From the NCBI GenBank assembly GCA_030913385.1, contig CP133159.1, positions 124,001-188,000 on the forward strand: 64,000 nt of DNA. The letters run 5' to 3'. This DNA comes from Cytophagaceae bacterium ABcell3 (GTDB taxonomy: Bacteria > Bacteroidota > Bacteroidia > Cytophagales > Cytophagaceae). Made by a program: the position numbers and the translations under genes. The notes below the pieces were generated by a model. That model made no database searches. It saw only the letters and a program-made list of their open reading frames with translations, and had not been told where the DNA came from. Numbering within the stretch: the stretch's first letter is position 1; each line of letters opens with the position of its first letter. Below, piece after piece: positions 19,600 through 36,260 of the stretch.

Positions 19600-20628
19600 T
19601 TATGACATCAATACTGCTTTATAGCTATTAATATCTTTAATAGCTATCCCCGTACCGCGCACGACAGCTCTCAGTGGATCTTCGGCCACATGTATTGGGA
19701 GCTTAGTTTTCAGTGCAAGGCGCTTATCCAGCCCTCTTAATAACGCACCTCCACCGGTAAGATGTATTCCATTGTCATAAATATCTGCAGACAATTCTGG
19801 CGGTGAAATCTCCAACGCCTTCAAAACAGCCTCCTCTATCTTAGAGATGGATTTATCTAAAGCAAAAGCGATCTCAGAATAGCTAACTTTGATTACCTTA
19901 GGAATTCCTGTCATCAAGTCACGGCCACGAATTTCATAATCCTCAGGTGGCGTATCAAGTTCTGTCAGGGCAGATCCCACTTCGATCTTGACCCGCTCGG
20001 CAGAACGCTCACCAATCAGAAGGTTGTGCTGTCTTCTCATATAGTCGAGAATATCTTTGTTAAAGACATCACCTGCCACACGTATAGACTGTTCACACAC
20101 AATACCAGAAAGTGCAATAACCGCAATCTCTGTTGTACCCCCTCCAATATCAACAATCATAGAACCCATAGGCTGCTCAATGTCAATGCCCAAACCAATG
20201 GCCGCAGCAATTGGCTCGTGAATCATATACACCTCTTTAGCCCCGGCATGCTCAGCAGAGTCGCGAACAGCTCTTTTCTCAACTTCAGTAATACCCGAAG
20301 GGATACATATGACCATACGATGAGAAGTAGCGCCAACAAGCTTTTTATTGCTGTCAATCATTTTGATCATGCCCCTGATCATATGCTCGGCAGCATGGAA
20401 GTCAGCAATCACTCCATCTTTAAGTGGACGGATGGTCTTGATGTTCTCATGCGTCTTTTCGTGCATTTGCATCGCCTCACGCCCTATGGCCAGCACTTTG
20501 CCCGAAACTTTATCCAGAGCAATTATAGACGGCTCATCAACTACGATCTTATCTTTATGGATAATTAAGGTATTGGCTGTACCTAGATCTATGGCTATGT
20601 CACTGGTAAAAAAATCAAATAAACCCAT
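19600..20628 (-). CDS. mreB: rod-shape-determining actin homologue MreB
   Basis: 342 aa, full length. Bacterial actin that forms membrane-associated filaments guiding the elongasome. Phosphate-1 motif DLGTANTLI (about 14-22), phosphate-2 VDIGGGTTEIAVIAL, adenosine motif TGGGALLRGLD, and the MreB stretch IREPIAAAIG-like IHEPIAAAIGLG. The N-terminal MGLFDFFTSDIAIDLG is characteristic of Bacteroidota MreB. It heads the mreBCD-mrdA-rodA block, with purH upstream on the same strand across a 130-bp gap that probably carries its own promoter. Confidence 0.97.
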   Translation of the reverse strand: MGLFDFFTSDIAIDLGTANTLIIHKDKIVVDEPSIIALDKVSGKVLAIGREAMQMHEKTHENIKTIRPLKDGVIADFHAAEHMIRGMIKMIDSNKKLVGATSHRMVICIPSGITEVEKRAVRDSAEHAGAKEVYMIHEPIAAAIGLGIDIEQPMGSMIVDIGGGTTEIAVIALSGIVCEQSIRVAGDVFNKDILDYMRRQHNLLIGERSAERVKIEVGSALTELDTPPEDYEIRGRDLMTGIPKVIKVSYSEIAFALDKSISKIEEAVLKALEISPPELSADIYDNGIHLTGGGALLRGLDKRLALKTKLPIHVAEDPLRAVVRGTGIAIKDINSYKAVLMS

Positions 20629-20758
20629 GTTTTATTCTACTTTAAGGATAAGGTTATACCTCTGTCAAATGATAAAAATCAAAAATTAGTTTCAAAAACA
20701 GCATATTTACAAACTGTTTTTTATAAAACGCCCAAAGATCAAATATATTCAATCTGTA

Positions 20759-22285
20759 TTAATGTTTAAAATGTCTCAGACCTGTAAATACCATTGCCAT
20801 GCCTCTAAGGTTACAAAAATCTATAGATTCTTGATCTTTTACTGATCCCCCAGGTTGAATTACTGCTTTAATGCCTGAATTGAAGGCAATTTCTACACAG
20901 TCAGGAAATGGGAAAAATGCATCAGAAGCCATAACTACTTTGCTGTCTAACTTAAAGCCAAATCCTTCTGCCTTTTCAATGGCTTGTTTCAAAGCATCTA
21001 CCCTGGAGGTTTGACCCACACCACTGGAAATTAACTGATCTTCGGTAGCAAGAACAATGGCATTGGACTTCGTGTGTTTACAAATCTTAGCAGCAAATAT
21101 CAAAGCCTTTTTCTCTGCATCTGAAGGAGAAGCAATGGTTACCGTCCTAAGGTCAGAAACCTTCTCTGTCTTCAAGTCTTTGTCCTGCTGAATAACACCG
21201 TTCAACAAGCTCTTGAACTGCACCTTTGGAAGCTGTACGTCTTTTCTTTTTAATATGATTCTGTTTTTCTTAGACTTCAGAAGCTCCAAAGCATCATCAG
21301 CGAAAGATGGGGCTATTAAAACTTCGCAGAAAAGTTTGTTCAACTCTTCGGCAGCAGCCATATCCACTGGCCCATTTGTCACAAGGACACCTCCAAAAGC
21401 AGAGATAGGATCAGCGGCCAATGCCTTTAAATAAGCTTCTTTCACTGTACTGCCCAATGCCACTCCACATGCATTGGTATGTTTAAGAATAGCAAAAGCC
21501 GTTTCCTCAAACTCATCTATTAAGGCAACTGCTGCATCCATATCAACTAGATTGTTATACGACAATTCCTTACCGTTGAGTTTCTCAAACATTTCACTTA
21601 GGTTACCATAGTAATACCCATTTTGATGCGGATTTTCGCCATACCTAAGCATGCCGGTAGTTTGAATACTGCTTTTGAAAGATGGCAGGTCTATATCTTT
21701 GGTAAAATATTGATAAATAGCAGAGTCATAATGAGAAGAAGTGTCAAATGCAAGTGCAGCGAACATTTTCCTGTCAGATAGGTCTGTAGCACCATTTTTT
21801 TCGCGCAAAACATCTTCCAACACCGAGTAGTGGTTTCTTGAAGATAATATTACCACATCCTTATAGTTCTTGGCCGCTGCCCGGATTAGCGAAATACCTC
21901 CAATATCTATTTTTTCGATGATTTGATCATCTGATGCTCCAGAAGCCACTGTTTCCTCAAAAGGATATAGATCCACAATAACCAAGTCAATTTCAGGAAT
22001 ATCAAACTCTGCAGCTTGTTTCTTATCGTTCTCAAGGTCTCTCCTATGCAGGATGCCACCAAAAACTTTAGGGTGAAGCGTTTTGACCCTGCCTCCAAAA
22101 ATTGAAGGGTAACTAGTCAAGTCTTCAACCGCTGTTACTTCCACGCCCAGCTCTTCAATAAACTTTTGGGTACCTCCTGTAGAGTATATTTTGACGCCAT
22201 TTTCATTCAACAAACGTACCAGTGATTCCAGGCCATCTTTGTAGAATACAGAAATTAATGCAGATTTGATTTTTTTGGATTCCAT
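20759..22285 (-). CDS. purH: bifunctional AICAR formyltransferase/IMP cyclohydrolase
   Basis: 508 aa. Catalyses the last two steps of de novo IMP synthesis. The N-terminal cyclohydrolase (MGS-like) domain shows SALISVFYKDGLESLVRLL, STGGTQKFIEELG and GGRVKTLHPKVFGGIL. The C-terminal transformylase domain shows LRYGENPHQ, ILKHTNACGVALG, SNAIVLA and the end FPDCVEIAFNSGIKAVIQPGGSVKDQESI. It lies five bases after purN, so the two purine genes are co-transcribed, and it is followed by mreB, an adjacency I recall from other Bacteroidota. Confidence 0.97.
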   Translation of the reverse strand: MESKKIKSALISVFYKDGLESLVRLLNENGVKIYSTGGTQKFIEELGVEVTAVEDLTSYPSIFGGRVKTLHPKVFGGILHRRDLENDKKQAAEFDIPEIDLVIVDLYPFEETVASGASDDQIIEKIDIGGISLIRAAAKNYKDVVILSSRNHYSVLEDVLREKNGATDLSDRKMFAALAFDTSSHYDSAIYQYFTKDIDLPSFKSSIQTTGMLRYGENPHQNGYYYGNLSEMFEKLNGKELSYNNLVDMDAAVALIDEFEETAFAILKHTNACGVALGSTVKEAYLKALAADPISAFGGVLVTNGPVDMAAAEELNKLFCEVLIAPSFADDALELLKSKKNRIILKRKDVQLPKVQFKSLLNGVIQQDKDLKTEKVSDLRTVTIASPSDAEKKALIFAAKICKHTKSNAIVLATEDQLISSGVGQTSRVDALKQAIEKAEGFGFKLDSKVVMASDAFFPFPDCVEIAFNSGIKAVIQPGGSVKDQESIDFCNLRGMAMVFTGLRHFKH

Positions 22286-22290
22286 TACTC

Positions 22291-22893
22291 TTATCCTTTT
22301 ATACTTTGGGTTATTAATTCGTCAATGATTCTTGGGTAGTGTTGATGCTCAAGGGACTGTACTTTTTTGGCGACCATTTCTGGAGAATAACAGTCTCCTA
22401 TGTCGCAAGCCGCCTGAAAAATAATTTCCCCCTCGTCGTAATTTTCATTTATGTAATGTACGGTTATACCAGTTTGCTTTTCTTTAGCATCCAGCACAGC
22501 CTGGTGTACATACATTCCATACATACCTTTGCCACCATAAGCAGGCAAAAGTGCAGGATGGATATTGATGATTTTACCAGGAAAAGCCTCTAAAAGCCTA
22601 TCAGGTATTAGCCACAAAAAACCGGCAAGAATTACCCAATCGGTTTTTAATGCTTTGAGCTCATTGACAATTACGTCACTATGAGCAAATTCTTCTTTGT
22701 TAAAAACCCGTGTCGGGATATTAAACTTTTTTGCACGTTCTAAAGCATATGCATCCTTTTTATTACACATAGTAGCTACTATGTTCACATCTTTCCTGTC
22801 ACGGAAATATTCAAAAATTTTTTGAGCATTGCTTCCTGAGCCGGAACAAAATACAGCGATGTTTATCTGAGAGTCTTTCACGAAAATATTCAA
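22291..22893 (-). CDS. purN: phosphoribosylglycinamide formyltransferase
   Basis: About 200 aa. Transfers formyl from 10-formyl-THF to GAR in purine synthesis. Motifs: VFCSGSGSNAQKIFEYF, AGFLWLIPDRLLEAFPGKIINIHPALLPAYGGKGMYG with catalytic His, and ITVHYINENYDEGEII with catalytic Asp. No ATG is available: the frame opens with TTG at 22893 and has GTG at 22881. GTG gives a protein starting VKDSQINIAVF. Either start leaves the active site intact. Directly upstream of purH. Confidence 0.95.
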   Translation of the reverse strand: MNIFVKDSQINIAVFCSGSGSNAQKIFEYFRDRKDVNIVATMCNKKDAYALERAKKFNIPTRVFNKEEFAHSDVIVNELKALKTDWVILAGFLWLIPDRLLEAFPGKIINIHPALLPAYGGKGMYGMYVHQAVLDAKEKQTGITVHYINENYDEGEIIFQAACDIGDCYSPEMVAKKVQSLEHQHYPRIIDELITQSIKG

Positions 22894-22915
22894 AAGACAA
22901 ATATAATTATTCTAT

Positions 22916-23791
22916 TTATATAAATATCATGCCCGCAAGTCCTGAAAGCATAATAATCTTACACAAGACGCTAACTTTATGAAATTCTTTGATAGTATCA
23001 GCATTTGACAACTGATACAGCAGGTAGCTTACAGGAAAAATTACCAAAACAATCAGCGCTACAAATAGTTGACTGCTGATAAAAAACGAAGCATAAAGTA
23101 TAAAGGAAAGAAAAATTCCGGAAATTATGAAAATGAAATTTCTGGTACGCCTTATCCCCCACAAAACAGGAAGTGTTTTGCAGCCAAAAGAGGCATCTCC
23201 CCTTGCATCTTCCATATCTTTAACAATTTCACGTATCAAAGATATAAAAAATGCAAAACCTCCATAAACCAGTGCATGCGCCAGCCCAGCCTGAAAATAG
23301 TACGATGGCAAAACGACGGCTACCCCTGTCAATAAAGCTACCACAAAATTGCCGCTAAACGGCTGACGCTTCAGCTCATTGGAGTATAACCATAGAGCAC
23401 CCCCGCAAGCTATATTAATAAGCATGATTCTCCAATTTAAAGCTGCCCCCAAAAGCACCCCTGCTACAGTAAACCCCAAGTGGGCCACCATGGCTATTCG
23501 GCGATTTAGGTACCTGCCAACTACAACTTTCTGAGGCTTGTTTATGATGTCTATTTTTACATCATAATAATCATTGATAATATACCCTCCCGCAGCTATT
23601 GATACCGTAGAACATACCAAAATGAATAAATCAAAAGAAAACAACGTTTCTAAGTGCGGAAGGTATTTTCCTACTATAAAAAGGGCAACAAAATACTGAC
23701 TAAGGGCTATAATAACAAGGTTCTGCAAACGCACGAGACGATAAATAACTCTAAGTACATATCTTAGATGTTTAAGTAAGTTATTTTTCAT
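22916..23791 (-). CDS. UbiA-family prenyltransferase (geranylgeranylglycerol-phosphate type)
   Basis: 291 aa, eight to nine helices. First aspartate-rich motif NDYYDVKIDIINKP (about 69-82), second motif around REIVKDMEDARGD (about 187-199). Bacteroidota members with this gene neighbourhood are commonly annotated as geranylgeranylglycerol-phosphate geranylgeranyltransferase; the true prenyl acceptor is unproven. It lies between the KdsC-like phosphatase gene and purN on the same strand. Confidence 0.85.
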   Translation of the reverse strand: MKNNLLKHLRYVLRVIYRLVRLQNLVIIALSQYFVALFIVGKYLPHLETLFSFDLFILVCSTVSIAAGGYIINDYYDVKIDIINKPQKVVVGRYLNRRIAMVAHLGFTVAGVLLGAALNWRIMLINIACGGALWLYSNELKRQPFSGNFVVALLTGVAVVLPSYYFQAGLAHALVYGGFAFFISLIREIVKDMEDARGDASFGCKTLPVLWGIRRTRNFIFIISGIFLSFILYASFFISSQLFVALIVLVIFPVSYLLYQLSNADTIKEFHKVSVLCKIIMLSGLAGMIFI

Positions 23792-23961
23792 GAGTCTCTT
23801 GCAGCCCTATTTTTAAGGAAATGATTTTCGATCTTAAATTACAACATAAAACAATCTAGTAAAAGAAACCTGAAAATTTTAGATAAGCTTTCCCCAAAAA
23901 TCATATATATATGTATAGGTCAACTATTTTCCATATGGCGCAACAGAGCTTTGTCCAGCAA

Positions 23962-24462
23962 CTACCAGTTTTCAGGTGTCCATTTACCTTGCGCTTTCAT
24001 GACTTTTTCTATTACATCGCGCACAGCTCCTCTACCGCCATCTTTTGGGCTGATGTAGGAACAAATAGGTTTAATGTCTTCTGCTGCATCATTAGGGCAA
24101 GTTGGCAGCCCTGCCAGTTTCAACATTTTATAGTCAGGAATATCATCGCCCATATAGAGGATGGACTCATTATCTATTTTCTTACCTTTAATATATTCAT
24201 TAAAGACCTTAATCTTATCCTTTACACCCATGAAAATATCCCTAATGCCGAGAAACGTTAACCTGTTTTTGACCCCTTCTTCAAAACCACCAGTAATAAT
24301 AATAATGTTATATCCGTTCTGGACAGCTTTTTCTAAAGCATAGCCATCCTTAATATAGAACCTACGTGCATGCTCGCCATTAGCATAAGACACAACGCTG
24401 CCGTCTGTTAACACACCGTCAACATCAAGAATAAAGGTAGAGATTTTACTGAAATCAGCCAT
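23962..24462 (-). CDS. HAD-family phosphatase, KdsC-like
   Basis: 166 aa, the length of KdsC (3-deoxy-manno-octulosonate-8-phosphate phosphatase), a capless HAD enzyme forming tetramers. Motif I ILDVDGVLTDG (about 11-21), motif II ITGGFEEGV where KdsC has the TGR form, motif III lysine in VKDKIKVF, motif IV YMGDDIPDYKML, and a KdsC-like tail GGRGAVRDVIEKVMKAQGKW. A role in KDO synthesis for lipid A core is likely but could also be a related sugar acid. Same strand as the DUF2520 gene upstream (33 bp). Confidence 0.85.
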   Translation of the reverse strand: MADFSKISTFILDVDGVLTDGSVVSYANGEHARRFYIKDGYALEKAVQNGYNIIIITGGFEEGVKNRLTFLGIRDIFMGVKDKIKVFNEYIKGKKIDNESILYMGDDIPDYKMLKLAGLPTCPNDAAEDIKPICSYISPKDGGRGAVRDVIEKVMKAQGKWTPENW

Positions 24463-24495
24463 AATAATAGGATTTACAGTAAATGTAGGAGAAAA

Positions 24496-25272
24496 TTACT
24501 CCTTTCTCAATAATCGTTTGGTCAAAATTTTATAAAGGTCTTTCAACGCCGGCTGGCCTGATAAATAAGAAAGGTGCTTCTCCAACGTTTTCACATCTTT
24601 GCGAACGGCTGGCCCTGTTTGCGCTTCGGCAGGAGATAAAAGAAAAGCCTTTTCCATTGTTTCTGCAATCAAAGGCTTCAACACATCAAATGGCAGGTTT
24701 GCCTGTTTGAGTATATTATCAGAAATGCCATATAAATGATTGGTAAAATTGCAGGCAAAAACTGCTGCCACATGCAGAGAAAGGCGGTCAGCAGATGATG
24801 CTCTATAAATATGCTTACTGACAGCACTTACCAATATTTCAATTAATTCATATACCTGCTCATCAGACCCTTCTAAAAAAAAGGGTACATTATCCAACTG
24901 AACAGCCTTAGACTTAGAAAAAGTCTGCAATGGATACATAACACCAAATTGCTTAATACCATCAAGTACCTCAAGGGGAGCGGTACCTGAAGTGTGCACA
25001 ACTATAGAATGGTCAGGAACTTGTAATTGCGCTACTACTTCCGAAATGTAATCGTCGGGTACGGCAATAACAATAACATCTGATTTACTGGAAGAAAAAT
25101 CTGGACAGTCTAGTGCAATGGCATCATAAAGCCTATGCGTTAAGTTTTGGGCATGGTCTTTATTTCTGCTGTATATTTCTTCTACTTTAATACCAGCATT
25201 TTCAAAAGCCGGTGCCAGATTCCATGCTACGTTTCCGGCACCGACAAAAGATATTTTATATGAGGCGGGCAT
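24496..25272 (-). CDS. Rossmann-like DUF2520-domain protein
   Basis: 258 aa. N-terminal NAD(P)-binding Rossmann motif FVGAGNVAWNLA (about 9-20) and a C-terminal helical DUF2520 domain (HVAAVFACNFTNHLYGISD, SPAEAQTGPAVRKD) related to the 6-phosphogluconate and ketopantoate reductase C-domains. The fold predicts an NAD(P)H-dependent reductase of unknown substrate. The start codon overlaps the ccmF stop (TAATG), showing tight coupling to the cytochrome maturation cluster. Confidence 0.88.
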   Translation of the reverse strand: MPASYKISFVGAGNVAWNLAPAFENAGIKVEEIYSRNKDHAQNLTHRLYDAIALDCPDFSSSKSDVIVIAVPDDYISEVVAQLQVPDHSIVVHTSGTAPLEVLDGIKQFGVMYPLQTFSKSKAVQLDNVPFFLEGSDEQVYELIEILVSAVSKHIYRASSADRLSLHVAAVFACNFTNHLYGISDNILKQANLPFDVLKPLIAETMEKAFLLSPAEAQTGPAVRKDVKTLEKHLSYLSGQPALKDLYKILTKRLLRKE

Positions 25273-27827
25273 TACTCCAAGCCTTTGTCTCTCATTTTAG
25301 CGAACTCAGTATACCTTCTATAAACAGCCATACCTATACCCAACATAAGTACTAGAGTTCCAATCCATAGCACATTGATAAGTGGTTTTTCAATGGCTTT
25401 TAAGATGATATAATCCTTTTGCGTAGTATTTACCTTAAAGTGGAACTCTCCCGTCTCGGTATTTACATTCACAAGAGTAATTTTTAAACCAAGGTCTTCA
25501 AAAACTTCAGGTATCTGCCCAATCATTTCATCCTTAACAACAAACATAGGCTCTGCAACAATGTCCTCGTCAGTTTTTAAGATGGCAAGTTTAGACTTAA
25601 CGGCAAACTCCTTTTCATTGAACGTAAGTCCAGGAAGGTCTTTCTCTAAATCCACACCTTTAAAGACAGTGATATAGTCATTCCACACAACAGTATCGCC
25701 TACCTGCAGGTGATAGTCCTGATCTTCGCTCCACTTTTTATCATCATCTGCTACCGGAATAGAAGACACGTGGGTATACAGGTCTTTTCCAAAATACCTT
25801 TTAATATCAGGCGAAGCCAAAAGCCCCATCTGAGGGTTTATCTGAGCTCTTGGGAAAAGTGTAAATACCTGCCCATTGTCTTTACGGTACTCTACTTCAA
25901 AATAGATGTTTTCGCCATAAATGTTAACGGTATCCCCTTTGCTGAAAAGCTTCTTGTCCTTATTATAAATATCTTTTTTGGCCAAAACTATATCCGCATC
26001 CATCGTTTCAACAAAGGCATTTTTAGGGAAGAAACCAGACATCCCTCTAACCTCAAGCCTCGGGCCTTTGTAAATAAGCTCATAGTCGTCCATGCGCATC
26101 GCTTCATTTCTCCACAAAAGGACGTTTTCCTGATTCATCTGATCAGAAAACTCTTTGGAATAAAGCATACCTGAGTTATTTAGAGAAATAACCTTAGAGT
26201 ATCCTGATGAAAACAAGATCCCTATCAGCATTAGGCCTACACCAATGTGGGCAAAAGCACCGCCAGCCAGTTTGTAGTTGTTTCGGAAGACATTATATAA
26301 AATAGAGCCATTGCACAAAACAGAAAAGACTGCTGCGGTAGTCAATAAGATGTAGGAAAGCTGAGAAAGCTCTGCAAAAAAGATAATAGCACTAGAAACT
26401 ACCAATGTCAAAATCAAAGGAATGGCAATAGCATCCCATAGTTTTGCTGGGTTCATTTTTTTCCACCAGAAAAACTGTCCAATACCAGAAAGAATGGCAA
26501 TACCAATGGCAAACCATATCTGCCAATTGCTATAGTAGATTTCCTGATCTGCTGGCGGAGCTATGTTAGACTCACCGCCAAAAGCTTTTATGATGGCATT
26601 GAATACAGGAATAGAAGTTGTGTAAATAACCTGGAATGCAGCAAGGCAAAGCACTGAAATACCTGCAAAGACCCAGAATTCACGAGAATATACCGTTGTT
26701 TCTTTCTCAGTAACCGGAAGCGCTTTCCATCTCCATGCGATCATAAAGATAGATATAAAGACAAAGAACAACAGGTATATGAGCAACTGTCCGCTAAGTC
26801 CTAGGTCAGTAAAAGAGTGTACGGAGGCATCGCCTAATATACCGCTACGTGTCAGAAACGTAGAGTATAAAATGAGTATAAAAGTAGTACAAACAAGAAT
26901 GACAGACAGTTTTAAAGCGCTACCACTGTTTTTGAAACTAATCATTCCATGAATACTACCAATCAAAATCAACCAAGGCACGTAAACAGCATTTTCTACC
27001 GGATCCCAGTTCCAATAGCCACCAAAGTTAAGTGTTTCATAAGCCCAGTAGCCACCCATTAAAATACCAGCACCTAAAGTAATAGCTGCAAACAACGCCC
27101 ATGGCAATGCCGGCCTAATCCATTCTTTATATCTTTTTTGCCACAGTCCTGCCATACAATAAGCAAAAGGGACTAAAGTAGCGGCAAAACCAAGGAAAAG
27201 CACCGGAGGGTGAATAACCATCCATATATTTTGAAGCAACGGATTCAGCCCGCTTCCATCTTCTGGAATAAAATCAGGGTTACTGACAAAGACCGGCAAG
27301 TCTGCCATCTGCTCTCGTAACAAGACAAAAGGCGAACTACCTATTTTAAGATCTATCAAAGGAATAACCGCACCAATAACCATAGAGGCCAGAAATGCCT
27401 GCACAGCACAGAATATGGTCATTACTGGCGTTTCCCATGTTTTATTGACTTTAATAAGTACTACCCCTAACAAAACATGCCAAAACATCCACAGCAAGAA
27501 GCTACCCTCTTGCCCTTCCCAGAAGGCAGAAATCATGTAGTAAAAAGGAAGTGTTTGGGAAGAGTGACTCCAAGCGTAATGGTATTCGTAATAATGGTTG
27601 CTGATAATCACATACAGTGATGTCACCACCCCCATAACAGCAACGGCATGGATGTAAAAAAAGACTCTGGCAAATGATCGCCAGCTTTTTAATTTATCTT
27701 CATTATCCAACGATGCTGATTTTTCCAGAACAGTAGAACGGAAAAATGCAATAGTTGCAATTACGGCGGAGAGGAACGCAGTAAGGACAAGAAAGTGCCC
27801 AACGTCCCCAATAATAGATCTAAACAT
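25272..27827 (-). CDS. ccmF: cytochrome c heme lyase subunit CcmF
   Basis: 851 aa. Large multi-span protein of the CcmF/CcsA heme-handling superfamily. The WWD-type heme-binding motif appears as GGYWNWDPVENAVYVPW (about 269-285), with QEGSFLLWMFWHVLL and VIHPPVLFLGFAA (His ligands) upstream. A large periplasmic domain (about 560-800) follows, and the last helix precedes RYTEFAKMRDKG. It attaches heme from holo-CcmE to CxxCH apocytochromes. It is 12 bp after ccmE in the same transcript. Confidence 0.94.
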   Translation of the reverse strand: MFRSIIGDVGHFLVLTAFLSAVIATIAFFRSTVLEKSASLDNEDKLKSWRSFARVFFYIHAVAVMGVVTSLYVIISNHYYEYHYAWSHSSQTLPFYYMISAFWEGQEGSFLLWMFWHVLLGVVLIKVNKTWETPVMTIFCAVQAFLASMVIGAVIPLIDLKIGSSPFVLLREQMADLPVFVSNPDFIPEDGSGLNPLLQNIWMVIHPPVLFLGFAATLVPFAYCMAGLWQKRYKEWIRPALPWALFAAITLGAGILMGGYWAYETLNFGGYWNWDPVENAVYVPWLILIGSIHGMISFKNSGSALKLSVILVCTTFILILYSTFLTRSGILGDASVHSFTDLGLSGQLLIYLLFFVFISIFMIAWRWKALPVTEKETTVYSREFWVFAGISVLCLAAFQVIYTTSIPVFNAIIKAFGGESNIAPPADQEIYYSNWQIWFAIGIAILSGIGQFFWWKKMNPAKLWDAIAIPLILTLVVSSAIIFFAELSQLSYILLTTAAVFSVLCNGSILYNVFRNNYKLAGGAFAHIGVGLMLIGILFSSGYSKVISLNNSGMLYSKEFSDQMNQENVLLWRNEAMRMDDYELIYKGPRLEVRGMSGFFPKNAFVETMDADIVLAKKDIYNKDKKLFSKGDTVNIYGENIYFEVEYRKDNGQVFTLFPRAQINPQMGLLASPDIKRYFGKDLYTHVSSIPVADDDKKWSEDQDYHLQVGDTVVWNDYITVFKGVDLEKDLPGLTFNEKEFAVKSKLAILKTDEDIVAEPMFVVKDEMIGQIPEVFEDLGLKITLVNVNTETGEFHFKVNTTQKDYIILKAIEKPLINVLWIGTLVLMLGIGMAVYRRYTEFAKMRDKGLE

Positions 27828-27839
27828 TTACTAAGTTAT

Positions 27840-28256
27840 TTAATATCCGGCTTTTACTTCATTTTCTTCATATTTAGACGGACACTTTAGAAGAATCTTA
27901 TCCGCCACAAATATATCGCCTCTTGCACTACCTACAATTACAACCTGTTCAGACCTTTCTATATCTTGAGGTTTAGGTTGGCCATATTGCACAATAGTTT
28001 CCCTATTCTTATTGTCTACAAGTACAAACTCAAAGAAGTTCGGATCCATTTCAGGCCTATATTTCATGCCTTGAATGTTGCCTTCACTATCTTTCTTAAG
28101 CTGCCCAACCACGTGCACCTTGGCACTACTGCCACTTTCAGCCAAAGCAAAAGCTTCGCCGAAATCTACATATTGGCTAGTGTTTCCAGAGGTAGAAACT
28201 ATTATAGAAATAGCTATACCAATAATTACAACGGCAAGAATATGAGACTTTTTCAT
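27840..28256 (-). CDS. ccmE: heme chaperone CcmE, CxxxY variant
   Basis: 138 aa. One N-terminal anchor helix (ILAVVIIGIAISIIVST) and an OB-fold domain (VHVVGQLKKDSEGNIQG, FVLVDNKNRETIVQYG, QVVIVGSARGDIFVADKILLKCPSKY). Proteobacterial CcmE binds heme through His in HxxxY; here that position reads CPSKY, the CxxxY form described for archaeal and deltaproteobacterial 'System I*' proteins. The C-terminal tail is short. It overlaps the ccmD-like gene by four bases and lies 12 bp from ccmF. Confidence 0.9.
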   Translation of the reverse strand: MKKSHILAVVIIGIAISIIVSTSGNTSQYVDFGEAFALAESGSSAKVHVVGQLKKDSEGNIQGMKYRPEMDPNFFEFVLVDNKNRETIVQYGQPKPQDIERSEQVVIVGSARGDIFVADKILLKCPSKYEENEVKAGY

Positions 28257-28507
28257 ACGTATTCGGGGTTATCGACGTTCTTTTCAACCTTGCTGATCCT
28301 TCTGTCCAGAATGAACAGATAAAGCGCTATTCCTAGAAAGATCAACAGCATTACAGCAACTACTACAAATATCTTACCATCTTCTCTAAAAGTGTCAGCC
28401 ATTTCTACATGTGAAGACGATTGACCAGGAGCGCCTGCCCCAGGATGCTGCCCAAATGCCGTAAAGCTGAGCATAAACATCATTATTATGTACAATAACT
28501 TTTTCAT
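28253..28507 (-). CDS. small CcmD-like membrane protein
   Basis: 84 aa. Signal-peptide-like start (LLYIIMMFMLSFTAFG), a Gly/Ala/Pro linker, then a single helix (FVVVAVMLLIFLGIALYLFILDRRISKVEKNV). The helix followed by RRI-S-K-V-E is the pattern of CcmD-like proteins that stabilise CcmC-CcmE in the heme transfer complex. Position between ccmC and ccmE supports this; the sequence alone would be weak evidence. Confidence 0.7.
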   Translation of the reverse strand: MKKLLYIIMMFMLSFTAFGQHPGAGAPGQSSSHVEMADTFREDGKIFVVVAVMLLIFLGIALYLFILDRRISKVEKNVDNPEYV

Positions 28508-28509
28508 GA

Positions 28510-29175
28510 TTATTCTATACCGCGTAGTTTATATTCAATATTTTTTAAACGTATTCTTAATGTAGAGACCCATACTCCTAAAAGGGTAAAACCTATCACT
28601 GCAGGGTAAAATATCGCTCTCATTCTACTGTCCAGATCATAAGCGTTAAAACCAGGGTTACCTCCATTGCCAGGATGCAGAGAGTCTTGAAGCCTTGGCA
28701 GCACAAAAATCAGTGCGATCAAGGTAGGAAAAGCAAATATATTATAAACGGCACTTATACGCGCACGCTGCTGGTCATCGCTAAATGCGCCTCTAAGAAC
28801 AAAATATGCAAAGTATATCAACAAACCGATGGCGGCAGAATCCTGTTTGGGGTCTCGGCTCCAATAATCGCCCCAGGTATAGCGCGCCCAAATCATGCCG
28901 GTGACTATGCCCAAAATCCCAAATAAAACCCCTGTATTAGCAAACTCTACGGCCTTTACATCAAGTTCTGAACGGAACCCTAACAAGTATTTTATGGAGT
29001 AAATGACAGAAACAAAGAGTAAGATAACCATCCCAAACCACATAGGAACATGAAAATATAGATTCCTAATGGTTTCATTAAGGATATCCATCCTCGGTAC
29101 CTCAAAAAGTAAACCTGCTATAATTACATAAATTAAGAGCAGTACAGTCAATATTTTCCACCAATTCTTTTTCAT
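28510..29175 (-). CDS. ccmC: heme exporter/handling protein CcmC
   Basis: 221 aa, six helices. The tryptophan-rich WWD segment appears as ARYTWGDYWSRDPKQDSAAIG (about 97-117), flanked by histidines in LYFHVPMWFGM and DSLHPG. CcmC loads heme onto CcmE. Two bases separate it from the ccmD-like gene; ccmB lies 60 bp upstream. Confidence 0.9.
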   Translation of the reverse strand: MKKNWWKILTVLLLIYVIIAGLLFEVPRMDILNETIRNLYFHVPMWFGMVILLFVSVIYSIKYLLGFRSELDVKAVEFANTGVLFGILGIVTGMIWARYTWGDYWSRDPKQDSAAIGLLIYFAYFVLRGAFSDDQQRARISAVYNIFAFPTLIALIFVLPRLQDSLHPGNGGNPGFNAYDLDSRMRAIFYPAVIGFTLLGVWVSTLRIRLKNIEYKLRGIE

Positions 29176-29235
29176 GTTCTAAGATTAAGAAAATTCCTTA
29201 GAGTTAAACAGCGTATTTTTAACAAAAACCTTTCA

Positions 29236-29901
29236 TCAACTTTTCCAGATAAACGGGAACAACAAATACGAGACAGCCACTACCATTGCATTTATCGCTA
29301 CCAATATCATCAGGTCATTATATATAAGACTTCTTTCAAGGCCATCTATAGAGTTGCGCGAGCACCTTATCAATAAGACCAAAACGGGTATTATCACTGG
29401 AAAACTAAGAACAGCCATTAACATGCTTCCGTTCCCAGATTTAGATGCTATTCCTGAAATTAATGTCAATGTACCAGAAAAAGACATCGCCCCTAATAAA
29501 AGGACAAGCAAAAACATGCCCAAGTCTTCTACCGGATTGCCCAATACCAAAGAGTAAAACAAGTAAGCTGTAAAAGCTAGTATAATCATCAACAAGACAT
29601 TATATATTATCTTAGATAGAATGATTACCCTTGGGCTCGTCAAATTATAATAATATAAATTTCTCGCTTGTCGCTCTTGCATAAAGCTTTTCGTAATGGC
29701 ATTTACCGCTGTAAAAAGCATTATGATCCAAAGAAGTGCATTCCAGGTAAAAATAGACAAATCACCGGCCCGAACCCCAATGCTCAAATAGCATATAAAG
29801 ACCGTACTGCCTGCAAAAAGCAGCATTCCGTTTAGAGCGTAACGCTGTCTCCATTCGAGCATTATCTCTTTTTTTATCTGAGCTGAAATTTCTCTGACCA
29901 T
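29236..29901 (-). CDS. ccmB: heme exporter subunit CcmB
   Basis: 221 aa from the ATG at 29901; a TTG at 29913 would add four residues. Six hydrophobic helices after a basic amphipathic start (EISAQIKKEIMLEWRQRYALNG), which is the CcmB N-terminal pattern. It is the membrane partner of the ATPase CcmA. No ccmA is found next to it or anywhere in this window, so the ATPase must lie elsewhere. First gene of the ccm transcript. Confidence 0.88.
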   Translation of the reverse strand: MVREISAQIKKEIMLEWRQRYALNGMLLFAGSTVFICYLSIGVRAGDLSIFTWNALLWIIMLFTAVNAITKSFMQERQARNLYYYNLTSPRVIILSKIIYNVLLMIILAFTAYLFYSLVLGNPVEDLGMFLLVLLLGAMSFSGTLTLISGIASKSGNGSMLMAVLSFPVIIPVLVLLIRCSRNSIDGLERSLIYNDLMILVAINAMVVAVSYLLFPFIWKS

Positions 29902-30032
29902 AATCAAAAACAAATTTCAGATATTTTTACTGAACAACCTATGCAAAATGTCATTTTTAAACCTGACAAATGTAAACTTTTCTACATACCAAGGGTAATA
30001 TTTAATAGGAAGGCTAAAAGAGGAAATGAATT

Positions 30033-30713
30033 ATGAGAAGATATTTGTTGGTAGCAGGGTTGGTAGTATGCTTAATTAACAAGGGATTTGCCCAAGAAGA
30101 CAATGAACTGTTTCAAGATAACGACGAGGAAATAGAAGCGCTGGAAGAAGAAGACGTTGAAGAGCTTGAAGATGAAGAAATCGAAGAGCTAGACGAAGAG
30201 GAAAGGCAAGCGCTGGAAATACCAGAAAGACGAAACACTGTCAAATTCAATACATTAAGTCCATTTGTAAGTTCAATATCCGGGTTTTATGAAAGAGGGA
30301 TTACTACAAATATGAGTGCCCAGATTGGCCTATTTTATACAGGCTACTCACTCACCGGCTCTAGCTGGAGAGGATATGGTATAACGCCAGAATTCAGGTA
30401 CTATTTAACAAGCGAAGAAACATATAATGAAGGACTTTACGTAGCACCTTTCTTCAGATATCAGCAACTTGAAGTAACACGCCACATACAGGAAGCGAAC
30501 ATCAGCTCTTTGATGAACACCTTTGGCGGTGGTGTAGTTGGCGGATACCAGTTTAAAATTGCTGACAGGTTCGCTTTGGATGCTTTCTTAGGGCCGGCAA
30601 TCGATATTGGAACTTTCAGGTATGAAGAAGGCATGGAAAACGTGGAGTTTGATGGAGGGCCTTTCTCCGGCTTTAACTTAAGGGTTGGCCTATCAGTAGG
30701 ATACTCATTTTAG
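30033..30713 (+). CDS. outer-membrane beta-barrel protein with acidic N-terminal linker
   Basis: 226 aa. Signal peptide (cleavage after GFAQ, near residue 21), then about 45 residues of which more than half are Glu or Asp (about 22-68), then a barrel-like domain with alternating strands (SAQIGLFYTGYSL, YVAPFFRYQQLEV, FGGGVVGGYQF, LRVGLSVGYSF). The barrel resembles the DUF3575-like family. The acidic segment would lie in the periplasm and may bind cations or a basic partner; that is inference. Divergent from ccmB. Confidence 0.75.
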   Translation: MRRYLLVAGLVVCLINKGFAQEDNELFQDNDEEIEALEEEDVEELEDEEIEELDEEERQALEIPERRNTVKFNTLSPFVSSISGFYERGITTNMSAQIGLFYTGYSLTGSSWRGYGITPEFRYYLTSEETYNEGLYVAPFFRYQQLEVTRHIQEANISSLMNTFGGGVVGGYQFKIADRFALDAFLGPAIDIGTFRYEEGMENVEFDGGPFSGFNLRVGLSVGYSF

Positions 30714-30749
30714 AAAAACTGAGTTTAGGGCTTTTCTTGAATAAAAAAC

Positions 30750-30812
30750 GCAATAGGGTTTGTTCACACAGCTATGCAATAGGAACTGCTATTGCACGAC
30801 AAGCCCTATTGC
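30750..30812. repeat. nested inverted repeat (cruciform-like) before pheS
   Basis: An outer 14-base arm GCAATAGGGTTTGT (30750-30763) pairs with ACAAGCCCTATTGC (30799-30812), one G-T wobble. Inside it GCAATAG (30776-30782) pairs with CTATTGC (30789-30795). The heptamer GCAATAG thus occurs four times, twice in each orientation. It may end the upstream transcript or act in the pheS leader; there is no long U-tract. Confidence 0.6.
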
Positions 30813-30989
30813 TTATTACAGAATTGAACCTCACCTGCCTCCTTGCAATATTAATGCTGCTTAGAAAATTTCATCAAACAAAGCAAATCATGCATTTAGC
30901 GCAGTGGCCTAATTTTGCAATTTCCAGTACTTTTAAGCCTGTTTCTGAAAATAATCCTGTAAATTTGTCGGGCTAATTCATGAAAAGTT

Positions 30990-32015
30990 ATGCTTGATAA
31001 AATTTCTCAGTTGCAAAAAGAGGCTGAAGCTTTTGATATTAAAGATGAAAAATCACTCGAAGCGTTCCGTTTGGCCTTTATTAGTAAAAAGGGTAAACTA
31101 ACTTCTTTGTTTGATGAATTAAAGAGCGTTCCCCGCGAGCAAAAAAAGGAAGTTGGCATGAGCTTAAACAAGCTTAAAGTTTATGCTAAAGAGAAGTTTG
31201 ACACTGCCACCCAAGAGGTCCAGTCAAAGCAAGGGGATAAAGGCGAAAAAAGTGACCAAGACCTCACCTTGCCTTCCATTCCACATGCCTTAGGGTCACG
31301 CCACCCGCTCACCATTGTGAAGGAAAGAATTGTCGAAATATTTGCGCGCATGGGATTCAACCTTTCTGAAGGGCCCGAGATCGAAGATGACTGGCACAAC
31401 TTTACAGCCCTTAACTTTCCTGAAAACCATCCTGCCAGAGAAATGCAGGACACCTTCTTTATAGAAAGAAAACCAGATATTACTTTAAGGACACATACGT
31501 CTTCTGTTCAGGTTAGGGTAATGGAAAACCAAAAACCTCCTATCAGGACATTGTCCCCGGGCAGGGTATTTAGAAACGAAGCTATTTCTGCCCGTGCCCA
31601 TTGTGTGTTCCATCAAATAGAAGGTTTATATATTGATGAAAAAGTGAGCTTTGCTGACCTTAAGCAAACACTTTATTACTTTGTAAAAGAAATGTTCGGA
31701 AAGGATATTAAAGTCAGGTTCAGGCCTTCTTTCTTCCCTTTCACGGAACCGAGCGCTGAAATGGACATTACTTGCCTGATTTGCAAAGGCAAAGGGTGCA
31801 ACATATGCAAGCAGTCTGGATGGGTGGAAATAGGAGGTGCAGGTATGGTAGACCCTAATGTGTTGCAAAACTGCGGTATAGACCCTGAAAAATACAGTGG
31901 CTTTGCTTTCGGTATGGGCATAGAAAGGATTACCATGCTAAAATACCAAATAAAGGACTTAAGGCTATTTACAGAGAATGACGTAAGGTTCTTGAGGCAG
32001 TTTACGCATTTATAA
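30990..32015 (+). CDS. pheS: phenylalanine-tRNA ligase alpha subunit
   Basis: 341 aa, normal length. Charges tRNA-Phe as the alpha2-beta2 enzyme. N-terminal coiled coil (1-85), class II motif 2 around [24 protein letters not shown], motif 3 [16 protein letters not shown], plus the Phe-site stretch [14 protein letters not shown] small cysteine cluster [16 protein letters not shown] (about 256-271) is present, as in many Bacteroidota PheS, and could bind zinc. pheT is not adjacent. Confidence 0.96.
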
Positions 32016-32041
32016 GGCCTGACTGTGTTGTCTAATAAACT

Positions 32042-32075
32042 TGTGCCCTATAGCAATTTGATACTATAGGGCACA
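32042..32075. terminator. hairpin between convergent pheS and TPR-like gene
   Basis: A perfect 12-bp stem, TGTGCCCTATAG (32042-32053) with CTATAGGGCACA (32064-32075), has a 10-base loop. It sits between convergent genes and could stop both transcripts, though neither side has a proper U-run. Confidence 0.6.
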
Positions 32076-32109
32076 GGTTCAGATAGGACTCATACTCTTT
32101 TCAAGTACT

Positions 32110-32985
32110 TTACATTTTTATTTCCTCAAACAAACGGTTGTTCAGCAACTTCTGCTTAAACTTCTTTTTGTTAAATTTCTTATTGGATGACCCAATATTA
32201 AAGCTCCTCCCTTCAAAAATAAAAGTTGCGAGTTTAGCTTTAGAGTTGTCATCACCAACTTTGGTTCTTTTCACCTTCACTTGGCGAATGGCATCTTTCA
32301 GTTTGTCTTCAAACGCCGCAAAACCATAATGCTCCTCGATCATGGGAATAATGTCTTCAATAAGTCCTGCATAAAAATCAACATTAGTAAAGCTTGCAGC
32401 ATCTGGCTTTCTGAAGAAAACATCATTGTCTAAGATTTTTTCCAACATTGTAAAGAGCGCTTCTTTTTCATCCCCCTTTAGCTTCCATAACTCTGCTTTG
32501 TAATAAGTGATCAGAACAGCCCTTTTCTCAAAAGATGTAGCGCTAAAGGTTTGATAGGGAAACTCGTGCTCTGCTAGTTCAATATATTCAAAACTTTCTT
32601 CGAGTTCACCTTCCTCTTTAAGCAACTGCGACATTCTTAAGCAAGCATTGTGTTTGTAGTTGGCATAAGGAGCCATTATACTGTTTCCTTCATCCAAATC
32701 ATTCAATTCGGAGTCCAAGATTTTTCGGTACCACGCTTTGGCTTTTTCAATATTACCAATCTGAGCGTAAACTACTGGAATATTGTTAAAGCTTCTTCCA
32801 TAACAATTAGAAGTATCAGGGTATTCCCGAACAACTTTCTTCCATACATACAATGCACTATCAAACTTCTCATGCTGAACAAAGTCAACCCCTTTATTCA
32901 ATAAATCACACTCCCACTCCTGAGCTTGAGCCATTTGAACGGACAAAAAGGACAAGAAGATTAATTGCAGAACTTTATATTTCAT
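32110..32985 (-). CDS. secreted TPR-like hypothetical protein
   Basis: 291 aa from the ATG at 32985, which places a signal peptide (VLQLIFLSFLSVQMAQAQ) at the start; the frame is open 11 codons further. Helix pairs with TPR-like character follow (GVDFVQHEKFDSALYVWKKVVREYPD, IPVVYAQIGNIEKAKAWYRKIL, LRMSQLLKEEGELEESFEYIELAE). The C-terminus is basic. No specific function is evident. It is the first of a run of minus-strand accessory genes. Confidence 0.7.
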   Translation of the reverse strand: MKYKVLQLIFLSFLSVQMAQAQEWECDLLNKGVDFVQHEKFDSALYVWKKVVREYPDTSNCYGRSFNNIPVVYAQIGNIEKAKAWYRKILDSELNDLDEGNSIMAPYANYKHNACLRMSQLLKEEGELEESFEYIELAEHEFPYQTFSATSFEKRAVLITYYKAELWKLKGDEKEALFTMLEKILDNDVFFRKPDAASFTNVDFYAGLIEDIIPMIEEHYGFAAFEDKLKDAIRQVKVKRTKVGDDNSKAKLATFIFEGRSFNIGSSNKKFNKKKFKQKLLNNRLFEEIKM

Positions 32986-33048
32986 CTCAATGCTGGTTAG
33001 TAAGTCATTACATGGCAATATAAGGTAAAAATTTAATTCACACCTTCT

Positions 33049-33327
33049 TTAGGTAGGCAATCGTGCTCTTTTGTTTAACGCATCCACCGTAATAATTCTA
33101 TAAGTAAATGAGTTAACCGTAATTCTCAAACTTCTTTCGTAGTTGGTGATATAAATGTTTTTCCCTCTTTTCTGAAACTGCGACTCATCTGTTGCACCAA
33201 GCACGTCGAGTATCATCTTTTCAATCTCGTCTTTTGACAAACTGGTACTCAATTTTTTACTGATCCTTCCGTACACAAGTTTAGTGTAGCAAATATTGAT
33301 CAAAACCTCTTTTTTATAATTTTTCAT
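33049..33327 (-). CDS. DUF3781-family small protein
   Basis: 92 aa. The stretch INICYTKLVYGRISKKLSTSLSKDEIEKMI, the ATDESQFQKRGKNIYITN segment and RITVNSFTYRIITVDALNK fit my memory of DUF3781, a family of small soluble proteins of unknown function present in Firmicutes and Bacteroidota. No catalytic motif is visible. It sits between the TPR-like gene and the SUFU-like gene on the same strand. Confidence 0.65.
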   Translation of the reverse strand: MKNYKKEVLINICYTKLVYGRISKKLSTSLSKDEIEKMILDVLGATDESQFQKRGKNIYITNYERSLRITVNSFTYRIITVDALNKRARLPT

Positions 33328-33359
33328 TTTAGCCCTACAGGGAACTATTAGTGAAATAT

Positions 33360-34025
33360 TTATACCACAGGCTGCCTTTCTAGGTCACTGTATGGGTAGT
33401 GTCCAGCCTGCTTTAGGAGATCGATTAGTTGTTCACTACCGTTTCCCCTTGCAAAGTCCATTTCACTTTTAAAAATCTGTAAGCACAACAGTAAATGATG
33501 CTGTCTATCACCAACTTTAAATTTCTTACTGCCGGGTTCATACAAGTCAAACAACAAACAAGTGTTCTCTTTCCCGTCTCCGTTTGGCAACTCACATGTG
33601 TCATACGGGTTTAATACTGCCTCCCTGGAATAAAACCCAATGGCAGTAAATAAACCACATATTTTTCTTTCAATAATATTAAATGCTCCTTTAGAATCTT
33701 CGTTATTATCGTATTCGTGTTTGGTAAATGCAACAAGCTCATAAGTGCCCAGTCGATTTGGAAGAGGGCCTGTTCCATCCGGCTCTAAAAGCTCCATAGT
33801 TGCAAAACCAGTCCCTTTTATATGGTTTAGGAAATAATACATATCAACTGCACCACCAACTGAAAACGGAATTAGTGCATGCCCAACTAAATTGTGCATG
33901 CGCCCAAGTACATTTTCAAGTCCTTTTGATTTTAGGTCATAACCTTGTTCATACTCTTCCTCAGTAAAGTCTTGTGGGGCTTGCTTCTGGCTTTTACTAA
34001 ACAGTTTCTTAAAAAAATTTATCAT
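33360..34025 (-). CDS. SUFU-like (suppressor of fused) domain protein
   Basis: 221 aa, soluble. The ordered features GTGFATMELLEPDGTG, LGTYELVAFTKHEY, FNIIERKICGLFTAIGFYSREAVLNPYDTCELP and CLLFDLYEPGSKKFKVGDRQHHLLLCLQIFKSEMDFA resemble bacterial SUFU-domain proteins. This family is known in bacteria mainly as immunity proteins in polymorphic toxin loci. No toxin gene is adjacent, so it would be an orphan. The family call is by pattern memory. Confidence 0.6.
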   Translation of the reverse strand: MINFFKKLFSKSQKQAPQDFTEEEYEQGYDLKSKGLENVLGRMHNLVGHALIPFSVGGAVDMYYFLNHIKGTGFATMELLEPDGTGPLPNRLGTYELVAFTKHEYDNNEDSKGAFNIIERKICGLFTAIGFYSREAVLNPYDTCELPNGDGKENTCLLFDLYEPGSKKFKVGDRQHHLLLCLQIFKSEMDFARGNGSEQLIDLLKQAGHYPYSDLERQPVV

Positions 34026-34071
34026 AGCAAATTACATTTAAAAAAATCGCCTCAATGTGCTTAGCCATTGA

Positions 34072-35775
34072 TCATTTAACCTCAATAAAAGTACCAGGAT
34101 AAGGTGCCGGTGTTGGGAAAAAGTCGGAAGGGGAGGTAACTGTTTCCATTGTTGCTGACTTTTTATCCAAACGGTAATGACTTATGGTTCCCTCTTTAAT
34201 ATTATGTGCATCCGAAGTGGTAATAATAAAACATTCGGTCTTTTCAACTATTTCTATAGGATAAGCTATTTCTTCAGGGTCTTTTATATATTCTAAAAGT
34301 TTGGCTTTTAGAAACTTTATGGTCTCGGCGTCTTCTTTTGTAGGAAAATAAAGCTTAGATAAGTTTTGCCCTATCGTCTGGGTAACCAAATTCACCACAA
34401 AATCATATTGATAACCATCCTTTTCACTATGCCTTAATGGGACGAATTTAACCAACCTTTTAAATTTGACTTTTACCTCGTCTTTGCTGGATTCTGATTT
34501 TATGATATAGTCGTCTACGTTAATTCCGGAAATAACCTCCTTCAAGATACCCAAAGCCATATCTGTTAAAGGCTTGCTGTATTCAGGTTTAATAGGGAAA
34601 AAGCCATTCATTCTTGCATACTGCTCCTTTAAGGAAATATCCTCACGATTATTGACGGGTAAATTGTAAGACTCATAATCAAAAATGACTTCATGAGTCT
34701 TTTTGTCAATAAAATATCTTTTGACCGATTCTTCTGAAATACTGACGATAAAGAAATAATCATCATTTTCTGAAACGGTGTGTTCCATTTTGGGTCCCAA
34801 AGGAAGAGGTATAATATCTTGTACTGAATGTATAAGATCAAAATCCGCTTTGGTCGGCGTGTAAAAAGCTACATCAGATGAGTCAAAAGGAAATATTTCT
34901 TTAGTGATAATATTGACAGCAAGATCATAAACCCTTTTTTCATTCCTGTTTTTGAACCTAACATTGCGCCTATATTTTACAATGATATCTTTATAATTAC
35001 CCAAGATTACAATGTCAAAGTCTTTCGGGTCTATTTTCAAGTGTGGCTGTTTAACAGCTAAGATAGATGAGGCGATTTTCACTAATTCCCCAACATGGCC
35101 CGACATCTCACCTTCCTCATTTAGAATAATGTATAGGTCTTTATTGTAATAATGTTTAAATGTGCGCTGGGTAAGATAATAAAAAGGGTTTGTTCCTTTA
35201 AACCTTAAGGTTTTTCCGCTTTTTTTACTAATTAATGTTTTTTCCAAATAGGGCTTTTCCTCTTCGTTATTGAGAAAGCCTTTATCAATATGTGGAACAT
35301 CGTTAAAACAAGAAATCAAATAGTACTCCTCATTCTCCGCAATACTATACTCTATATCTGCCTGTATCTCTTCAGGCAAAAAGTTCTTTTCCTTTAATTC
35401 AGCAATAACTTCTTCTTCCTCCGTAGATGCCAGCCATAGCCCTGTTTCTGAATCATCTAAAGGGTTTATTTCCTTGGTATGTAAGTTTACGGTGATATCA
35501 TATGTGGTGCTTTTTATAGGGTTAGATATATAGCGCACACCCCTTCGGAAAAAACCTTTGGTAACTCCATAAGTGTCTTTCCAAACGCTGATATAAAAAT
35601 CACTATAATCTATAGCTATTTCCGGATACTTTTCTTCTAAAATATCCTGAGCCATAACAATCAGCTCCTCTCTGCTTCTCGTATCTAGGTTTTCCATATT
35701 AAGATGGTTTTCTTGGGCATCTAAACAAAATATGTTAAAAATTAAAAGAAATAGTACCCTATAGCATTGGATCAT
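34072..35775 (-). CDS. secreted protein with three internal repeats, unknown function
   Basis: 567 aa from the ATG at 35775, which directly precedes a signal peptide (VLFLLIFNIFCLDAQ); a weaker start lies 21 bp upstream. Three repeats of about 170-180 residues each carry a core of the form Y-D-(I/L/F)-x-V-N-(L/I)-x-T-(K/Q), at TYDITVNLHTKEI, VYDLAVNIITKEI and QYDFVVNLVTQTI. Each core is preceded by a basic strand (GFFRRGVRYI, VKYRRNVRF, VKFKRLVKF). I do not recognise the family. It is followed by the SUFU-like gene at 46 bp. Confidence 0.7.
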   Translation of the reverse strand: MIQCYRVLFLLIFNIFCLDAQENHLNMENLDTRSREELIVMAQDILEEKYPEIAIDYSDFYISVWKDTYGVTKGFFRRGVRYISNPIKSTTYDITVNLHTKEINPLDDSETGLWLASTEEEEVIAELKEKNFLPEEIQADIEYSIAENEEYYLISCFNDVPHIDKGFLNNEEEKPYLEKTLISKKSGKTLRFKGTNPFYYLTQRTFKHYYNKDLYIILNEEGEMSGHVGELVKIASSILAVKQPHLKIDPKDFDIVILGNYKDIIVKYRRNVRFKNRNEKRVYDLAVNIITKEIFPFDSSDVAFYTPTKADFDLIHSVQDIIPLPLGPKMEHTVSENDDYFFIVSISEESVKRYFIDKKTHEVIFDYESYNLPVNNREDISLKEQYARMNGFFPIKPEYSKPLTDMALGILKEVISGINVDDYIIKSESSKDEVKVKFKRLVKFVPLRHSEKDGYQYDFVVNLVTQTIGQNLSKLYFPTKEDAETIKFLKAKLLEYIKDPEEIAYPIEIVEKTECFIITTSDAHNIKEGTISHYRLDKKSATMETVTSPSDFFPTPAPYPGTFIEVK

Positions 35776-35804
35776 TTTATAAAAATTGCAAAACATAAGA
35801 TACG

Positions 35805-36260
35805 CTATAATAAGCGAAACTGCTTAAAATGGTGTGAGAAATGTTTGTTATGAAACCTTGTCCACTCCTCTCTGTCCAGTTCACCCATTGCTAGGTTTAC
35901 AGGTTTTGCGTCTGGATTGTTCAAAAAGTATAGTTCAAATTCATCTAACGCTAAATATAGCTTTTTTAAAGCGGCACCAAGATCTGAGCAAACCAGCTTA
36001 GGCAATGTATCTCCAAGCATAGGAGCTTTAAAACCCATAGGAAGCTCATTGTCTGTGTATATTACAGCACGTTTTATTTGCTCCGCTTTTTCTTTAGGAA
36101 AATATAACTTCTGATCTAGCGCACCATTAGAAGACATCACGGCAAATGCTAGATGCTCTACCATGTGCTGAGCGGTCATACGCCCCCACACAGGATCACT
36201 GTCTGACTTTAACCCCTTCAGTTTATGCACTAGTCCCTGTCGGTTTTGAATATCTATCAT
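35805..36260 (-). CDS. DUF1569/DinB-like putative metal-binding protein
   Basis: 151 aa. A four-helix DinB-like pattern with histidines spaced as in DUF1569: WGRMTAQHMVEHLAFAVM (about 25-42) near the N-terminus and REEWTRFHNKHFSHHFKQF at the C-terminus. In this superfamily such His residues hold a metal ion for thiol-dependent transferase or hydrolase chemistry; substrate unknown. It precedes the triple-repeat gene by about 30 bp on the same strand. Confidence 0.7.
   Translation of the reverse strand: MIDIQNRQGLVHKLKGLKSDSDPVWGRMTAQHMVEHLAFAVMSSNGALDQKLYFPKEKAEQIKRAVIYTDNELPMGFKAPMLGDTLPKLVCSDLGAALKKLYLALDEFELYFLNNPDAKPVNLAMGELDREEWTRFHNKHFSHHFKQFRLL

Follow-up and report, generated by a model that had tools for sequence, protein, structure and literature searches.

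The window, a stretch of 64,000 nucleotides from Cytophagaceae bacterium ABcell3, encodes a heme chaperone, CcmE1, whose heme-binding motif seems to read CxxxY instead of HxxxY. A preliminary description interpreted the surrounding genes as a System I*-like cytochrome c maturation cluster, with no ccmA, ccmG or ccmH nearby and heme possibly delivered through a cysteine. This raises the questions of whether the cysteine occupies the place of the heme-binding histidine, whether those components are missing from the genome as well as from the cluster, and to which type of maturation system the locus belongs.

The heme-binding position of CcmE1 and its gene cluster

The ccmE1 open reading frame (Table 1) specifies 138 amino acids from an ATG start, free of internal stops, and its sole cysteine, C125, lies within the sequence KCPSKY. 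The protein has two histidines, H5 and H48, neither of which falls in an invariant column of an alignment of 26 Bacteroidota CcmE proteins, and the stretch from K124 to Y129 is invariant in the same alignment. A phmmer search of the PDB sequences with CcmE1 alone gave no match; the profile of the 26 rows succeeded, aligning KCPSKY on KHDENY of E. coli CcmE (1sr3, 8ce8) and KCP on KCP of D. vulgaris CcmE (2kct). It follows from the profile alignment that the cysteine of CcmE1 aligns with the heme-binding histidine. The replacement of HxxxY by CxxxY noted in the preliminary description is thus borne out against characterized proteins of both kinds, with C125 matching the histidine of the E. coli protein and the cysteine of the Desulfovibrio one. 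Canonical System I has histidine at this position, and both CcmE proteins of the genome have cysteine.

The predicted structure of CcmE1 (mean pLDDT 89.7) combines a membrane helix with an OB fold. With this model as the query, Foldseek returned CcmE of 8ce8 as the best match (E 4.5e-4), with 8ce8 and 1lm0 at the top and 1j6q, 1sr3 and 2kct within the first seven matches. VIA-align 2 placed unrelated OB folds equal to or above CcmE, so that the model supports no more than an OB fold with CcmE among the best Foldseek matches.

The order ccmB-C-D-E-F was described correctly: open reading frames and Pfam matches delineate an intact cluster on the minus strand, in which all five products reach the Pfam cut-offs and the start of ccmB is assumed to be the ATG at 29901. 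None of the five exceeds the stricter cut-offs of NCBIfam, as expected of divergent members, and the naming of the genes therefore rests on Pfam together with gene order; the NCBIfam CcmF/NrfE models likewise do not tell CcmF1 from the second CcmF of this genome, CcmF2. A letter-pattern search for the tryptophan-rich motif of CcmC gave no match, nor did Rfam across positions 20000-36000 of the window.

Table 1. Positions of the features discussed. Numbers without a prefix refer to the window; G000 is the genome under study, and the prefixes L015 and L266 mark locus coordinates.
Feature	Position	Strand	Remarks
ccmE1	27840..28256	-	heme chaperone, N-terminal membrane helix and OB-fold domain; Pfam CcmE 40.4 bits (cut-off 24.6)
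CPSKY motif	27870..27884	-	codon of heme-binding Cys125 at 27882-27884
ccmD (CcmD_alt family)	28253..28507	-	Pfam PF20077 76.5 bits; 4-base overlap with ccmE
ccmC	28510..29175	-	loads heme onto CcmE; Pfam PF01578 66.7 bits
ccmB	29236..29901	-	membrane subunit of the CcmAB release ATPase; Pfam PF03379 54.5 bits
ccmF1	25272..27827	-	cytochrome c synthetase, tryptophan-rich motif GGYWNWDP; Pfam PF01578 93 bits and PF16327 50 bits
CcmA-like ATPase	G000:C1:4235206-4235817 (or 4235212-4235823); L266:5204-5818	- (in L266)	profile match
ccmE2-ccmF2 and nrfHA region	L015:6720-12275 = G000:C1 ~411.7-417.3 kb
ccmF2	L015 6720-9371	-
nrfA	L015 10725-12275	+	CWTCK and four CXXCH sites

The cysteine trait turned out to be no peculiarity of this organism and is general in the phylum. 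CPSKY is present in 62 of 62 Bacteroidota loci (both strands, the two CcmE loci of this genome counted), in all 43 CcmE genes of the wider regions and in all 73 CcmE proteins recognized in 80 named genome_contigs loci, seven of which have no recognized CcmE; the three sets overlap in part, the first two sharing genomes. A chance substitution or a misalignment is ruled out by the 62 loci, the invariance of the 26 rows and the profile alignment to PDB sequences. Pfam detects CcmE in 264 of 392 genomes of the phylum and in 213 of 241 of the order. A 2011 review had already reported CPSKY from 25 of 36 System I* genomes, more than any other motif. The holders of the system that it names are delta-proteobacteria, chloroflexi and firmicutes, and its main text contains none of the words Bacteroid-, Cytophaga and Flavobacter- (PMC3601427). 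Apart from this review, a search of the open-access literature for CPSKY returned only an unrelated paper. The feature in the window can soundly be added to System I*, and by the standards of its phylum it is unremarkable. Separately, second CcmE matches were seen in genomes G479, G062 and G294, and a Bacteroidota-type ccmB-C-E-F cluster with CPSKY occurs on a contig titled Salinisphaeraceae (L210, NYTH01000001.1) that is probably mis-binned.

CcmA, CcmH and the assignment to System I*

That ccmA, ccmG and ccmH are missing near the cluster holds locally, in that Pfam recognized none of them among seven proteins scanned around it, but the absence of ccmA does not extend to the genome. In three loci of outer Bacteroidota (L159, L160, L167) an ABC ATPase of 211-214 amino acids immediately precedes ccmB. 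A first CcmA profile was made from these three ATPases, and its best match in the genome under study, at 164.7 bits, is an ATPase encoded directly after an lpxA-like gene; the next ABC ATPase of this genome scores 112.5 bits. The four-gene order is identical in six of six genomes, and the genes that precede the ATPase appear from their sequences to be lpxD, lpxC and lpxA. A profile of six lpxA-linked ATPases (E <= 1e-33) detected the gene in all 21 genomes of the class chosen for having CcmE, versus one of 24 chosen genomes that lack a CcmE match. In the single exception, G509, CcmE may have been overlooked or lost in an assembly gap. Absence of ccmA is ruled out by this unlinked gene, its conserved order and its co-occurrence with CcmE.

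We take the lpxA-linked ATPase to be CcmA on the strength of these profile comparisons. It is very improbable that it instead partners another transporter, with CcmB acting without an ATPase or with a different one. Such an arrangement would agree with the NCBIfam CcmA model (cut-off 131.6 bits), which no protein of this genome reaches: the best match, at 114.1 bits, is a different ABC ATPase, and the lpxA-linked protein has just 85.2 bits, below other ATPases of the genome. It would also agree with a motif scan of the 80 named loci, 54 of which show ccmB (by best label), in which no ABC ATPase shorter than 260 amino acids was seen; the other loci of the class that were scanned likewise have none next to ccmB. 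Against it stand the 52 bits by which the lpxA-linked protein is the nearest relative, within this genome, of the ccmB-adjacent CcmA of outer Bacteroidota, and its presence wherever CcmE occurs among the chosen genomes of the class.

For CcmH (PF03918), the genome-wide search returned nothing at E <= 0.001 and a best match of 14.1 bits (a stretch in L003) against a cut-off of 25, in agreement with the preliminary description. Across the phylum, CcmH exceeds the Pfam cut-off in five of 392 genomes and is detected at E <= 0.001 in 12. Contrary to what the preliminary description implied, its lack does not define System I*, since about one-third of System I* bacteria possess CcmH according to the 2011 review (PMC3601427).

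At E <= 0.001 the Cytochrom_C_asm family (PF01578) has three places in the genome, CcmF1, CcmF2 and the ccmC product of the window, the latter being the only CcmC detected, and ResB (PF05140) reaches just 21.9 bits, within CcmF2, against a cut-off of 24.6; thus no System II synthase was found. System II as the maturation route is rejected on these searches. With no CcmH over the cut-off and no System II synthase, System I* with a Cys-type CcmE is the best reading, and the delivery of heme by such a CcmE, as initially proposed, is the best account of the locus. The features of that system recognized here are the cysteine of CxxxY at the histidine position, the lack of a CcmH match, which is usual and not required, and a CcmABCDEF core, with B, C, D, E and F encoded in the window and A unlinked. 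Judged from these sequence comparisons, the locus would represent a System I* with an unlinked CcmA, with a probability of roughly 0.85.

A second CcmE-CcmF pair beside nrfHA

Outside the window, at about 411.7-415.0 kb of G000:C1, the genome encodes a second CcmE (CcmE2, with FKCPSKY) and a second CcmF (CcmF2, 883 amino acids), in a pair that is divergent from nrfH and nrfA. Among the 241 genomes of the order, 17 contain a total of 20 strong NrfA loci, seven NrfA matches below 23 bits having been set aside. Every one of the 20 has exactly one linked synthetase, which is of the ResB type in 17 and the ccmE2-ccmF2 pair in three; 19 of the regions were read and one (G496) was assigned by coordinates only. 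In the 17, ResB lies beside nrfA, fused to CcsA or as separate genes (in G432 it exceeds the cut-off only when frame neighbours are included). The three divergent pairs are those of the genome under study, G557 (L112) and G549 (L123), and G549 holds one nrfHA locus of each kind. ResB has no match in G557, and none over the cut-off in three genomes without NrfA (G457, G482, G418).

In phylogenetic trees, the three CcmF2 sequences form one clade (100/99), nested in a wider Bacteroidia CcmF group to which L171 and L175 also belong (100/98). CcmE2 of the same three loci likewise forms one clade (100/92). Both are separate from the CcmF1 (19 rows, 100/100) and CcmE1 (21 rows, 98/100) sequences of the order, suggesting uptake of the pair from a different lineage of the Bacteroidia. 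The three pair-linked nrfA genes are not placed together in the NrfA tree, and no nrfA or nrfH was found in the 80 named CcmF loci, within stretches that are short for some of them.

Given the CWTCK heme site of NrfA (Table 1), CcmE2-CcmF2 is a candidate CXXCK heme lyase, a role that we put at about even odds. In the fuller form of this proposal, which we hold with equal reserve, the pair would be a two-gene, CcmH-free System I* lyase dedicated to the CXXCK active-site heme of NrfHA. It would have come from another Bacteroidia lineage and displaced an NrfI-like ResB/CcsA synthase beside nrfHA, and its own Cys-type chaperone may reserve heme for a single site.

Alternatively, and possibly, the pair duplicates the general System I* route, as a redundant branch or a regulated one (for instance, for anaerobic growth), without a special CXXCK role, in which case CcmF1 alone could hemylate CWTCK; we regard this alternative as tenable but tentative. 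The wider phylum lends it some weight: 49 further nrfHA loci were read, all with CXXCK as the first motif, and nine have a CcsBA/CcsA-like neighbour, none has a CcmE-CcmF pair, and 40 (L274-L286, L288-L306, L308-L314, L317, several clipped at contig ends) have neither in the stretch read. A linked, dedicated lyase is therefore not needed everywhere for a CXXCK NrfA, and at these 40 loci the CXXCK heme is presumably attached by the general Ccm set or by a lyase encoded elsewhere. Also against a dedicated role, the pair is carried by only three of the 69 nrfHA loci in the two samples combined. A 2025 review states that CcmF, working with CcmI, may serve both motifs in Shewanella (PMC12285233). 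A general branch is harder to reconcile with the one linked synthetase, of either type, at each of the 20 loci of the order, and with the common divergent layout of the three pairs and their single clade each for CcmE and CcmF.

Proposed heme delivery and comparison with known systems

In the route that we infer, CcmC and CcmD would put heme on Cys125 of CcmE1, CcmB and the CcmA encoded after the lpxA-like gene would free holo-CcmE, and CcmF1, with no CcmH to assist, would join heme to CXXCH sites. CcmE2 is probably loaded by this CcmBCD too and would pass its heme to CcmF2. This pair, placed where the remaining nrfHA loci of the order encode a ResB-type synthase, is probably responsible for the CWTCK active-site heme of NrfA. 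Precedent for the general scheme is provided by a Desulfovibrio operon with a Cys-type CcmE, which according to the 2011 review functions in E. coli with neither CcmH nor CcmG (PMC3601427).

The chemistry of the link to Cys125 may be covalent or coordinative. D. vulgaris CcmE is reported to bind ferric heme non-covalently via C127 (PMC3884852), and covalent binding cannot be assumed here on that account. If the cysteine held heme by coordination only, the picture of Cys-linked delivery would be wrong. We consider this unlikely, given that the cysteine of archaeal CcmE (C120 of the acetivorans protein) is reported to be required for heme attachment and for heme-stained CcmE (PMC9084895).

These results bring the Bacteroidota into the Cys-type Ccm group and point to a natural reduced set, CcmABCDEF with no CcmH found, in bacteria that have cultured relatives; ccmA, as we read it, is not missing but hidden beside lpx-like genes, where it escapes the curated NCBIfam model. 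The Cys-type CcmE itself was already known, and the nrf-linked CcmE2-CcmF2 is the new lead. A search of the open-access literature found nothing on NrfHA together with CcmF, or on CcmE together with CcmH, in Bacteroidetes. If the pair is a CXXCK lyase, one cell would hold two related CcmE-CcmF pairs of the System I* type, each acting on a different substrate, offering a direct route to asking which protein reads CXXCH and which CXXCK. For E. coli, the question of which Nrf protein recognizes CXXCK is described as unclear in the 2025 review (PMC12285233).

Compared with System I* of Desulfovibrio and archaea, the system described here differs in that ccmA is unlinked, behind an lpxA-like gene, that CcmD belongs to the CcmD_alt family and that the host is a member of the Bacteroidota, a phylum that the 2011 review does not name in its main text (PMC3601427). 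The second pair resembles the CcmF paralogues of ANME archaea, which are encoded beside large multiheme cytochrome genes, in being a case of a cytochrome-specific CcmF linked to its presumed substrate; it differs in the substrate and in the duplication of CcmE, which the accessible part of that report does not describe (PMC9012536). It also resembles NrfEFG of E. coli, a dedicated CXXCK heme lyase, in that a CcmF paralogue adjoins an nrfA with a CXXCK site, a likeness of gene position that may or may not extend to kinship, the CcmF tree having been built without NrfE sequences. Unlike in E. coli, the pair has its own Cys-type CcmE, no CcmH/NrfF (PF03918) match exceeds the cut-off in the genome, and nitrite is reduced by an NrfHA-type enzyme. 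With NrfI of Wolinella, a ResB-ResC fusion of System II, the pair shares its position beside nrfHA and its presumed CXXCK task; unlike NrfI, it is of the System I* type, carried by three loci of an order in which 17 of 20 have a ResB-type gene. The 2025 review assigns NrfHA maturation to System II, with NrfI as its only confirmed CXXCK synthase (PMC12285233), and the ccmE2-ccmF2 pair does not fit this division.
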